Source: Phymorhynchus buccinoides (Eukaryota; Mollusca; Gastropoda; Neogastropoda; Raphitomidae). Taken from it: a DNA stretch of 64,000 nt. The stretch's first letter is position 1. Each line of letters begins with the position of its first letter. The DNA lies in the NCBI GenBank assembly GCA_017654935.2, contig CM065684.1:54500192-54564191 (forward strand). The letters are read 5' to 3'. Of this stretch, positions 19,601-37,600 are shown piece after piece. A model generated the notes under the pieces. It was not told the DNA's origin, made no database searches, and saw nothing but the letters and a program-made list of their open reading frames with translations. A program made the position numbers and the translations under genes.

Positions 19601-22600
19601 TAGAGAGAGAGCGCCATTCAGATAAGGCTGACATTGACAAGAGCAGTCACCCAAAGGAACGAAGGAAGAAAGAAAGGAAGGAAATTGAGAAGGGTCTTTA
19701 TCTTCTAACCTAAACAGACAGCAGTGGTACCAGACATGCCTAATTGGTCTCATGGGTCTGCAGTACAAGCGCTCGCCAGATTTATAGTGCGTCTCATAAC
19801 CCTCGAGTAGTAATTATAGTGCGTCATTTCACCCCCAGAACGAAGTTTTAATGCGTCTGTCATGCATATTTGACGCACAGACGCACAGAATGGGGAGCCC
19901 TGCTTATAAGACCTCATTTTGGATGATTTTTTAAGGTCTTATAAGGGAGGTTCCACTGTAATTTAATTTTTGATTTCTTTTTTTAGTTTATCCTTTTAGG
20001 AGGATCACTCATCCATAATTATACCCTAGGGGATTTGAAATTAATTTAAATTCATAATTGTTTTATTTATTTTTTTTAGATGTAGAAATTAGTTTTATCC
20101 ACACAATCCTTCAGTAAAGGTGTCATGCGTGTTGTAATACTAATATTAACCCTTTAATAGCCAAGGTTTTTTTGGGGGGTGAAATCTTACAAACTGTTTG
20201 TGAATTTCTGTTGCAAAAGCAACCCAAAACACTTATAAAGTAATATTCTAGAGAAATAGAAAAAATCAAAAATGTTCAGTGTTTTTTCACGCACGCGCTT
20301 GAAGCGTGCATGGGACTGGTTTTTCTCATAGTGATGCAATCAAATCACAGAGAGAGAGATGGGTCGCTAAATGATGAAGTAAAACATGTTGTGAATTGCT
20401 GGAACACATGATTGTTTGAGTTGACATATAGTTAACAGGTAACCCAAACCAGCCAGTATGTGTATAAGTATAACCCAGAGTTGCTGGTATTTGTTTTGAC
20501 CTCTCACATGTTTTCCTTCCCACTGCAAAAGTCATACAGTAAAATCACTGGGGCCATTCATAGCCATGCATGCTGACAGCGCACAGTTGGGTAGCTTACT
20601 TCAGCAAAGAAAAGTTACCAGGATTTTTAGAATTCACAAAAACGGTGAAACACGTATAATTGTAAACATGTTTATCTAAAACCCTGTGCAGTTTGTTTTG
20701 TGATAAATGCGTTGGAGAAAATATTACACTCATCTTGATCTGGGAGCGGTTCCTGAAGCCATTTTTTTCACTTCACCCAACAAAATTTGTTGGCGTGCGC
20801 TTGAATCAAACACCGGATGTAAATATCAGGATGGATAAGGTAGATAACTCATTTTTCAAGAGATTCAGACCAATATAATTTATTGTTTCCCTTCCTCTGC
20901 TTCTGTAGCTTTGGGAGTGCATATGCACGCGTGGAGCGTGCATGGCTATTAATGGGTTAACTGTTTTAAGCTCCCTGTTTGAAATGTGCGCATGCATGTG
21001 CATGTTGAAAAAATATGGTATCTTGAGAAAATGGGCCAGTCAAATTTGAAAAGACTGAAATAATAAAATTTGCGGTAGCCAATGCAGGGGTGCATGTGGG
21101 TGTGCCTGAAGCCTGAATTCAGGTAGTTTGATGCAGCTTCATGACGCAGGGGTGCATGTGGGTGTGCCTAAAGCCTGAATTCAGGTAGTTTGATGCAGGT
21201 TCATGATGCAGGGGTGCATGTGGGTGTGCCTGAAGCCTGAATTCAGGTAGTTTGATGCAGGTTCATGATGCAGGGGTGCATGTGGGTGTGCCTGAAGCCT
21301 GAATTCAGGTAGTTTGATGCAGCTTCATGATGCAGGGGTGCATGTGGGTGTGCCTGAAGCCTGAATTCAGGTAGTTTGATGCAGCTTCATGATGCAGGGG
21401 TGCATGTGGGTGTGCCTGAAGCCTGAATTCAGGTAGTTTGATGCAGCTTCATGATGCAGGGGTGCATGTGGGTGTGCCTAAAGCCTGAATTCAGGTAGTT
21501 TGATGCAGCTTCATGATGCAGGGGTGCATGTGGGTGTGCCTAAAGCCTGAATTCAGGTAGTTTGATGCAGGTTCATGATGCAGGGGTGCATGTGGGTGTG
21601 CCTAAAGCCTGAATTCAGGTACTTTGATGCAGGTTCATGATGCAGGGGTGCATGTGGGTGTGCCTAAAGCCTGAATTCAGGTAGTTTGATGCAGGTTCAT
21701 GATGCAGGGGTGCATGTGGGTGTGCCTAAAGCCTGAATTCAGGTAGTTTGATGCAGGTTCATGATGCAGGGGTGCATGTGGGTGTGCCTAAAGCCTGAAT
21801 TCAGGTAGTTTGATGCAGCTTCATGATGCAGGGGTGCATGTGGGTGTGCCTAAAGCCTGAATTCAGGTAGTTTGATGCAGGTTCATGATGCAGGGGTGCA
21901 TGTGGGTGTGCCTGAAGCCTGAATTCAGGTAGTTTGATGCAGGTTCATGATGCAGGGGTGCATGTGGGTGTGCCTAAAGCCTGAATTCAGGTAGTTTGAT
22001 GCAGCTTCATGATGCAGGGGTGCATGTGGGTGTGCCTGAAGCCTGAATTCAGGTAGTTTGATGCAGTTCATGATGCAGGGGTGCATGTGGGTGTGCCTAA
22101 AGCCTGAATTCAGGTAGTTTGATGCAGGTTCATGATGCAGGGGTGCATGTGGGTGTGCCTAAAGCCTGAATTCAGGTAGTTTGATGCAGGTTCATGATGC
22201 AGGGGTGCATGTGGGTGTGCCTAAAGCCTGAATTCAGGTAGTTTGATGCAGCTTCATGATGCAGGGGTGCATGTGGGTGTGCCTGAAGCCTGAATTCAGG
22301 TAGTTTTGATGCAGGGGTGCATGTGGGTGTGCCTAAAGCCTGAATTCAGGTAGTTTGATGCAGGTTTGATGCAGGGGTGCATGTGGGTGTGCCTAAAGCC
22401 TGAATTCAGGTAGTTTGATGCAGGTTCATGATGCAGGGGTGCATGTGGGTGTGCCTAAAGCCTGAATTCAGGTAGTTTGATGCAGGTTCATGATGCAGGG
22501 GTGCATGTGGGTGTGCCTAAAGCCTGAATTCAGGTAGTTTGATGCAGCTTCATGATGCAGGGGTGCATGTGGGTGTGCCTAAAGCCTGAATTCAGGTAGT

Positions 22601-34600: not shown

Positions 34601-37600
34601 CATGTGGGTGTGCCTGAAGCCTGAATTCAGGTACTTTGATGCAGGTTCATGATGCAGGGGTGCATGTGGGTGTGCCTAAAGCCTGAATTCAGGTAGTTTG
34701 ATGCAGGTTCATGATGCAGGGGTGCATGTGGGTGTGCCTAAAGCCTGAATTCAGGTAGTTTGATGCAAGTTCATGATGCAGGGGTGCATGTGGGTGTGCC
34801 TAAAGCCTGAATTCAGGTAGTTTGATGCAGCTTCATGATGCAGGGGTGCATGTGGGTGTGCCTGAAGCCTGAATTCAGGTAGTTTGATGCAGGTTCATGA
34901 TGCAGGGGTGCATGTGGGTGTGCCTAAAGCCTGAATTCAGGTAGTTTGATGCAGGTTCATGATGCAGGGGTGCATGTGGGTGTGCCTAAAGCCTGAATTC
35001 AGGTAGTTTGGTGCAGGTTCATGATGCAGGGGTGCATGTGGGTGTGCCTAAAGCCTGAATTCAGGTAGTTTGATGCAGGGTTGCATGTGGGTGTGCCTAA
35101 AGCCTGAATTCAGGTAGTTTGATGCAGGTTCATGATGCAGGGATGCATGTGGGTGTGCCTAATGCCTGAATTCAGGTAGTTTGATGCAGTTTCATGATGC
35201 AGGGGTGCATGTGGGTGTGCCTAAACTGGCTAAAGCCTGAATTCAGGTAGTTTGGTGCAGGTTCATGATGCAGGGGTGCATGTGGGTGTGCCTAAAGCCT
35301 GATTTCAGGTAGTTTGATGCAGTTTCAGGCAGCTGACTGCCTGAAGAAAAAACTTTTCAATACGTTAGCTCTGCTCTTGTTCATCTGGTTTCTTCAAATT
35401 AGTTCAGGCAAAAGTTTGGGCCACTGCATGCACCCATGCCAATGTTTTGAGATGAAAAATCTAGTTTTACTACAAGACAGATGAAATTGGGACCCCCCAA
35501 ATGATTGTGAAGTATCCAATTTTTTGTGGTACCTGTATTTTGAGCTACAGTCGAACGTCAGTATTGCGACCACACTACAGACTGGCCCAAACTGTCCGTA
35601 ATGGAGAAGTGGTCACTAGAAATGGGTAGGCGCTGCGCTTGCGGCGATGCGCTCTCTGGGGGAGAGCAACCCGAATTTCACACCCATAGGCCTATGTGAC
35701 CAGAATAAATACCAAATACCAATAATAAAATACCATTACTGGAGACTTTTTCAGTAATCTGAATAAGAGAAGAGACAGTAAAACTGTCTGGATTACCGGG
35801 GTGTTCCCGAGACTGAGGTGCCTGCTAGGCGGGGTTTGACTGTAACTGGTTTGTATTTTATACATCAAAACAGAATCCCTGATATTTCACCACCCCTATG
35901 TGTGTGTGTGCGTGCACGCATGTTTGTGTGTGTGTGTGTGTGTGCATGCGTATGTGTGTGTGTGTGTGTGCATGCATGTGTGTGCAGACTGTATAAGGCT
36001 TTGGACAAGCCCACCCTGAAGCTGCTCAGTGAAAACGACCGACTGCTGCTGTTTGATCCAGCCCTCATCCAGGAGCTGAGAGAGTGCTGTGAAGCCATCG
36101 AGGATACTGTGAGTTGGGCTGTGATTGTGACTTGTTTGGTTGCGCTTTTGTTGCTTCTTTCTCTCTTTTCTTTCGCCACCCCTTGTGGCATGTGTGTGTG
36201 GTGTGCATGTGTGTGTGTGCATGCGTATATACCAATAGCAATTCTATGTGTGATTAAGAAAGCCTCGCCTATTCTACTTTCAATGCAACATAATGCCAGA
36301 ACAATTCTCTGCTTAGAATTTTGCTGTTGAAAAATAGCATACAACTCTTTCATTGTCTTTTTTTCTATGTCCTTAACCAGTATAGTTTATGTTTCGTTCG
36401 TGTATGTTTGGTTTATGCTTCTGTTTATAGATGGCTTGATGAAAAAAACCATGTATGTTTGCTTATTCAATGTCCATCTTTAAATAAAATTTGACTTTGT
36501 CTCTGTTGTTTCATCATATGCAATAGTTCATGGCCTGGAAGAAAACATTACTATCATCACTTTCTAGTAATTTTAATGCTAGAATGAAAGCATACCTGCC
36601 AACCCTCCCGGTAAATCCAGGAACTTCCTGGATTTTGTCACCTCTCCCGGTCTTCCCGGAATTCACGTGAAACTCCTGGATTTATAAATTTCCAGCTTAG
36701 ATGACCTCAGAAACGAGTGTTATGAAACCCAAAAACCGAAGCTGGGTTTCAGGAAGCTTCGCGGAGCAGAGTTCGTACTGCGCATGTCGGAAGCTACTTC
36801 CTCCTGCAATCCTTTGTTTGGCGGTCTTTAGGCCTGTCTCACGCCGCCATTGAAGTAACCTCGCCACGAAAAAGTTTCTCAGCTTCAGGGGGCTGTGTTC
36901 ACTGGGGGCTGTGCCCCCTGACCCCCCAAACCCACCCCCCTCCAGGATTTTGTTTGGGAAAAGTTGGCAGCTATGTGAAAGTGAAATGCTTGTTTCTCTT
37001 GCACAGCCCCCCAGCACCAAGCAGTCGTCGCACCCATTCCTGGGGATGTTCAAGCCGGCCACAGACTCCAAGGCCAACTTCCAGGACAACAACAGCTTCA
37101 TGAAGTTCAAAAACATGAGGTAGGCATTTTCCATCATCATCTTCTGTTGCTCTTCTTGTTGTACGGATACAAAGACGGGTGTATGTTTTACAAGATATTG
37201 GGTTGAAGAGACCTGTTTGTGCTGCATTTAATTAATCATGTCTACTTCAGTGTTTGTTGCGATGTGCACAGGGACAGCTTTTCCACCCTGATGAAGGACT
37301 GGAAGGTGGGAAGCGCCTCTCAGCACTGGAAAAGCAAGGCCTTCATCAGCAAGGTGCAAAAAGTGTTCAGCGAGGCCGACATCGGCTGCTTCATGCACTT
37401 CTCCCGCCTCTTCATGCGCCACCTGCTGCAGGTGAACGTCACTCTTTGATTTTTAAAGGGGCACCCTGACACTTTTTTCAGCTTTTGCAAGAAACACGTC
37501 GAGATCACCTGAAAAACACACTTTACAAAGATCGCAATACACTCGCTTTGCTCCGGTTTCCCAGAAGTCAAATCTGCGGTTCCTCCTTGGCGGAGGTGCT

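Follow-up and report, generated by a model that had tools for sequence, protein, structure and literature searches.

How does a satellite array of 232 units come to lie between the two ends of one small transposon? The question is raised by a 64,000-nucleotide stretch of the genome of the gastropod Phymorhynchus buccinoides (GCA_017654935.2, contig CM065684.1, positions 54,500,192 to 54,564,191 of the forward strand; the whole stretch is called the window here), in which such an array stands at 21079-35444, upstream of exons of codanin-1. An earlier note on this DNA had read the array as lying inside what looked like a single transposon insertion, and had suggested a route from a small DNA transposon to satellite DNA in place. 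Our analysis makes it very probable that a single copy of a 168-bp non-autonomous miniature inverted-repeat transposable element (MITE), inserted upstream of the codanin-1 exons, gave rise to the array when its left part was amplified, through an inferred course of duplication and then exchange. The single insertion is borne out by the 33 single-stretch copies among 39 other loci with the right end, by 6-bp target duplications and by a twin of the same insertion with nine units. The route in place holds in part: the array changed in size where it stands (9 versus 232 units), but its first duplication may predate the insertion. The element, its ends and target duplication, the 9- and 232-unit states and arrays of other periods can all be read directly in the assembled DNA.

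The insertion is made up of the following parts.

21079-21084, no strand: left target-site duplication CCAATG; its ATG part also fits the repeat unit, and it is backed by the 6-bp rule of the family
21085-21096, + strand: left terminal inverted repeat CAGGGGTGCATG
21085-35330, + strand: array of 232 units, mostly of 62 bp, every unit opening with the left terminus CAGGGGTGCATG
about 31237-35100, + strand: zone of the array in which a block of about 34 units, or about 2.1 kb, is present in duplicate
35324-35345, + strand: hairpin TTCAGGCAG-CTGA-CTGCCTGAA at the junction of the last unit and the unique tail
35331-35438, + strand: right part of the element, present once and 108 bp long
35427-35438, - strand: right terminal inverted repeat, reading CATGGGTGCATG on the - strand
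35439-35444, no strand: right target-site duplication CCAATG

The step from unit to unit is exactly 62 bp in 212 of 231 cases, and the remaining steps measure 49 bp (seven), 61 bp (four), 50 bp (three) and 51, 55, 60, 68 and 71 bp (once each). The 212 62-mers agree with their consensus at a mean identity of 98.96%, and the unit consists of element positions 1-57 followed by TGATG. The 108 non-repeated base pairs after the array end in GCATGCACCCATG, and the left and right ends of the element agree at 11 of 12 bases. The earlier note's description of about 230 copies, each beginning with the left terminus, then about 110 bp of unique sequence and an inverted partner end, with CCAATG directly outside both ends, is thus accurate. 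Taken by itself the left-hand CCAATG is weak evidence, as the repeat unit itself ends in ATG, which leaves CCA alone strictly outside the pattern. A duplication of 7 or 8 bp (GCCAATG, with one extra common base) was considered and dropped because the family prefers 6 bp. The 49-bp units could have arisen from ATGCAG, which spans the left junction and recurs 49 bp inward; alternatively, they could reflect deletion between the two copies of GATGCAGG in the 62-bp unit. When viral contigs were scanned with the 62-bp unit, no match was found.

The content of the units bears at once on one other way of building the array. PMC12628747 describes a published model in which other DNA transposons insert repeatedly into their own target duplication, and this too would leave tandem copies. 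The units here contain neither the right 108 bp nor the right end, and they are not separated by CCAATG; for the codanin array this refutes the model, to which we give practically no weight.

To place the element in its family, the genome (2.12 Gb in 3962 contigs) was searched with its right end (query 35320-35438), and 40 of 647 candidates were scored, giving 61 matches. A second search scored 39 of 1005 candidates, and the window's own array was not among the matches listed; all genome counts given here are lower bounds. Besides the window, at least 39 further loci carry the right end. Among the 39 that were fetched, 33 are single-stretch copies, one has several 62-bp units (L009), two have interior arrays (L029 and L030) and three are in two pieces or comprise two elements. 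The consensus element is 168 bp long and non-coding in appearance; short, present in many copies, with inverted ends and a target duplication, it is a MITE. The variable copy number between MITE ends (232 versus 9 units, and the 79-bp array of L029) is that of a MITE-derived satellite.

The 6-bp rule appears both in the window and across the genome. Within the window, ends of the type CA[GT]GGGTGC with at most one mismatch formed 75 pairs. The flanks matched exactly over 6 bp in four of these (0.018 expected) and over 4 bp in two (0.29 expected). No pair matched at 3, 5, 7, 8, 9 or 10 bp, and displacing both flanks by 1-10 bp left no match at 6 bp. The four exact pairs, which indicate that several element families in the window follow the 6-bp rule, are these.

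21085-35438: the array element, CCAATG
49225-49551: element with related ends, CCCTGG
53620-54299: element with related ends, CTGGCT
59209-59589: element with related ends, TATTAC

Across the genome, the 6-bp duplication is exact at 9 of 25 unique complete loci, against none of 600 mispaired controls, and five or six of the six target bases agree at 15 of the 25, against 4 of the 600 (all four at five). This count omits 11 loci without both ends and four duplicates; when seven of the 11 were re-examined, an exact 6-bp match was found in L029, L022, L019 and L012 and none in L030, L038 and L016.

The terminal repeats of many hAT elements begin with CAG, and the ends of this family are of that type (left CAGGGGTGCATG or CAAGGGTGCATG, right CATGGGTGCATG), which is a weak criterion. 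hAT families with 6-bp duplications have been named hAT6 (PMC12730594), and on the strength of its own 6-bp duplication the present element is putatively hAT6-like. A canonical hAT element needs an 8-bp duplication and was rejected, as none of the 25 loci is exact at 8 bp, against nine at 6 bp. Dada elements, described in PMC3706591 as having 6-7 bp target-site duplications, lacking terminal inverted repeats and inserting in snRNA or tRNA genes, were ruled out by the terminal inverted repeats of this family. Five open reading frames of the window, three of them in or beside elements with 6-bp duplications, gave no convincing Pfam match, and no genome-wide search for an autonomous partner was made. 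Short open reading frames at 53953-54198, 42587-42856 and 38473-38880, similar to one another and with no convincing Pfam match, give the impression, and only that, of a Cys/His pattern like the N-terminus of a transposase zinc finger.

The earlier note had also named an unamplified relative of the element within the window.

47671-47806, + strand: weak, decayed relative with the left part and hairpin core in common with the array element

The likeness of the left part and hairpin core stands: 34 bp of the unit recur at 97%, and the shared CAGCTGACTG stretch scores 23 (in 1000 shuffles the maximum was 24 and the mean 14). The rest of its right part aligns with the element at shuffle level (501 of 2000 shuffles reach the score), and no clean 6-bp duplication was seen around it. 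It was therefore dropped as proof of the unamplified state, for which there are better copies elsewhere in the genome.

Evidence that the array changed in size comes from a second copy of the same insertion. This locus (L009, C5:54413700-54423699) has the same CCAATG and the same ends as the window copy, and only nine units. The flanks of the two copies are 98.6% identical over 9,034 aligned columns, with 53 mismatches; to the right, identity is 97.0% over 4,318 aligned columns, with 45 mismatches and the remainder gaps. Substitutions amount to about 0.6% on the left and about 1.1% on the right. Three codanin-1 exon stretches (447 bp) are identical, and the match reaches at least window position 60721 (98.2%). 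One insertion with 9 and with 232 units means that unit number diverged by 223 after insertion. Six of the nine units are types that occur unchanged in the long array, and a multi-unit state therefore predates the split of the copies.

What the two copies are to each other bears on the direction of that change. Both lie on one scaffold, about 98-112 kb apart and in the same orientation, as would two members of a tandem segmental duplication, in which case an old long array might have shrunk to give the short copy; several private mutations in the last units of the long array are what old edges would show. Twins of family loci occur, however, 19-260 kb apart on seven other contigs (C7, C18, C22, C25, C27, C32 and C3303; two are inverted), and long runs of N lie nearby. 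From these we conclude that the twin on C5 is probably the other haplotype, placed beside the window copy in the assembly. Neither the twins nor the substitutions between copies decide the direction of change, and we regard segmental duplication with contraction as unlikely, though a serious alternative to two haplotypes. Among the twins, the same insertion was found two or three times, 19-260 kb apart, at L013/L014/L015 (C25), L045/L046 (C27) and L010/L011 (C7).

Other copies of the family have formed arrays of their own, with periods of about 50, 70, 76, 79, 89 and 98 bp, and at three sequenced loci the period (79, 76 and 70 bp) is the spacing of an exact direct repeat of 5-9 bp. L029 (C8) has intact ends, TTATAT on both sides and 11 interior units of 79 bp; TTCAGGCA recurs in it exactly every 79 bp, and the same 8-mer stands at positions 54 and 133 of the single-copy element. 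The 76-bp units of L061 (C32) match the spacing of AGGGCTCTT, of which one copy is at the left end and the other 76 bp inward. L060 (C9) has ten units with a period of 70 bp. Its spacer shares 19 of 21 bases with the left flank of the locus, begins with AGTTG, which is also present in the element, and aligns with the element consensus no better than chance (484 of 500 shuffles align equally well). Since the spacer resembles the flank rather than the element, the duplication took in host flank, after insertion; the unit carries about 20 bp of host DNA, with a repeat pair that spans the element and its left flank. In L062 (C19), TGCCTGAAG recurs at steps of 54, 52, 54, 49, 49 and 49 bp, against a consensus spacing of 49. 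Two arrays on C18, of 52-54 bp (at 13.5 Mb) and 98 bp (at 2.5 Mb), are known from match spacing alone, and the arrays of L061 and L062 extend past the fetched stretch. Short direct repeats are not rare as such; the evidence is their agreement with the array periods. These arrays fit microhomology-driven duplication followed by unequal exchange.

They also bear on whether a Helitron-like rolling-circle element made the codanin array, with many 5' ends and a single 3' end. Every unit there does have a left end, and the continuation to the right end is found in the last unit only. The family nevertheless has inverted ends and 6-bp target duplications, the interior 79-bp array of L029 has no left ends, and the L060 unit holds host DNA from the left flank. 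Helitrons are not known to have target duplications or terminal inverted repeats. The ends, the duplications and the unit content rule such an origin out for practical purposes, and we judge it highly improbable.

Where the 62-bp unit itself was born is a separate matter. Its last five base pairs, TGATG, match neither the continuation of the element nor the codanin flank (CCAATG), and they do match the left flank of L059 (C3303); the first duplication may therefore predate the codanin insertion. L059 contains four 62-bp units; its left flank ends in AAGGGTCATGATG, and the first unit repeats those 13 bases, which among all fetched loci occur in L059 only, twice. The later L059 units read CAGGTTCATGATG, which is the spacer of the codanin array. 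The simplest reading would place the birth of the 62-bp unit at an L059-like site, through exchange at the imperfect repeat AGG[TG]TCA, with a later move to the codanin element. Against such seeding, what stands as the flank of L059 may be a truncated unit, and TGATG may derive from element positions 45-49 through a double jump.

The same observations raise the possibility that the array was already long before it jumped to the codanin site, having grown elsewhere and been carried in whole. The shared spacer CAGGTTCATGATG would agree with this, as would the final bases that match the L059 flank and not that of codanin. The tail of L059 is of another type, the codanin unit bodies have T at position 40 like their own last unit and unlike L059, and the nine-unit copy of the same insertion shows a large change afterwards. 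We consider arrival as a long array improbable.

The preferred reading is still amplification of a copy of the MITE, which inserted upstream of the codanin-1 exons and left the 6-bp duplication CCAATG. Short direct repeats abound in the element, and at its positions 54-75 there is a strong hairpin, which may have played a part in the duplication: its folding energy is -10 kcal/mol, none of 200 shuffles folds equally well, and it borders both the 62-bp and the 79-bp segments. The unit by itself, the entire tail and the 47671-47806 relative have no remarkable secondary structure, and the short hairpin alone stands out. Slippage or unequal exchange between short repeats, within the element or between element and flank, may have produced the first tandem duplication, after which unequal exchange between whole units would move their number up or down. 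Uniformity is highest in the middle of the array, and the first unit and several of the last carry variants seen once. A block of about 34 units recurs, with a run of nine identical units (seven distinct types) at a lag of 34. Private variants at the edges and a duplicated block are as expected of unequal exchange, and the block is a trace of segmental exchange.

Several points weigh against this account. The unit counts are those of the assembly, and the nine-unit copy could be a contraction instead of the 232 units an expansion. Among the 25 complete copies, 10 agree at four or fewer of the six target bases, and one reaches six only by a shift within a GT repeat. Some 8-bp direct repeat is present in 624 of 5000 shuffles of the consensus. 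L030 (C32) has 89-bp units and a TTCAGGCA spacing of 99 bp (positions 34 and 133), and would fit the predicted period only with 10 bp lost. The 62-bp junction rests on an imperfect repeat, in which the L059 flank has six of eight bases in common with element positions 50-57. Since the codanin and L059 tails are of different types, a shared seed needs recombination too.

A broader proposal is that the family is a recurrent maker of satellites: in different copies its repeats and hairpin would start arrays of different, predictable periods, sometimes taking up host flank that persists in each unit and marks where the unit arose. A multi-unit element so marked could seed another site and there reach hundreds of units in the time since two haplotypes diverged. 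We put this forward tentatively, as an idea with somewhat less than even prospects.

Routes from MITEs to satellites, including variable arrays between MITE ends, have already been published (PMC12628747, PMC9659126, PMC4079207). The closest described system is miDNA4 of Xenopus (Scalvenzi and Pollet, as described in PMC12628747 and PMC9659126), in which an internal repeat occurs as a monomer or a variable array between intact ends and short direct repeats are proposed as the cause. It is described there as a Tc1/mariner element with a captured tandem repeat, unlike the present family with its 6-bp duplications, units from the element's own terminus and several periods. Xstir and Xmix, also of Xenopus (Hikosaka and Kawahara, via PMC12628747), are likewise a MITE family with tandem arrays and composite forms; according to that source they follow a stem-loop excision model, with units from internal MITE sequence. 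Tetris/TIR-220 of Drosophila virilis, a non-autonomous DNA transposon that makes target duplications, has arrays of up to 66 copies within its terminal parts, and is described as a Foldback element with 220-bp units, 8-10 bp duplications and a heterochromatic location (PMC4079207). Plant Helitron arrays, with many left ends, one right end and up to hundreds of units, are attributed in PMC12628747 to rolling-circle elements, whereas the present element has inverted ends and 6-bp duplications. In the Haber and Louis model of minisatellite birth from 5-10 bp repeats, as given in PMC6947457, the period is likewise set by the spacing of short repeats; here there are several independent cases in one transposon family, one with host flank. 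As far as the open-access literature that was searched goes, the kind of event is known, and what is new is that two states of one insertion can be compared directly, that a single family has arrays of such varied periods, and that one unit includes flank.

The birth of a satellite is usually inferred from its end products. In the present case a single genome contains the single-copy element, one insertion in a 9-unit and a 232-unit state, and other first steps whose junctions are short enough to be read, so that the succession of microhomology duplication and unequal exchange becomes directly testable. A captured flank also serves as a tag for tracing the birthplace of a unit.

The genic setting proposed by the earlier note, an intron of codanin-1, is likely. 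One coding exon was found downstream of the array.

35992-36120, + strand: codanin-1 coding exon, matching residues 434-465 of the solved codanin-1 (E=1.4e-4) and identical in the second copy of the locus

Weak codanin-1 matches follow downstream, in order and on the same strand, at 36983-37120 (E=0.52) and 37267-37446 (E=1.2-1.3). A search upstream of the array confirmed no codanin-1 exon.

Other repeats are scattered through the window. A looser scan for ends gave 9 exact 6-bp matches in 7715 pairs (1.9 expected), among them 36591-36975 and 38264-38926, with ends like CAGACCTGCCTACT and flanks TGAAAG and TAAAAC; the second lies inside a zone of 30-bp repeats, which makes its flank match weak. 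A further element with CATGTA flanks may occupy 37896-39772, around a 30-bp tandem array at 38932-39591 (about 22 copies), to which about 2.5 copies at 41425-41738 are related. At 12590-14601 an element of the 49225 type, with CATGGGTGC ends, is broken by other DNA, and its flanks AAGGCG and AGAGGCG nearly agree. A run of about 138 C bases fills 43375-43512.

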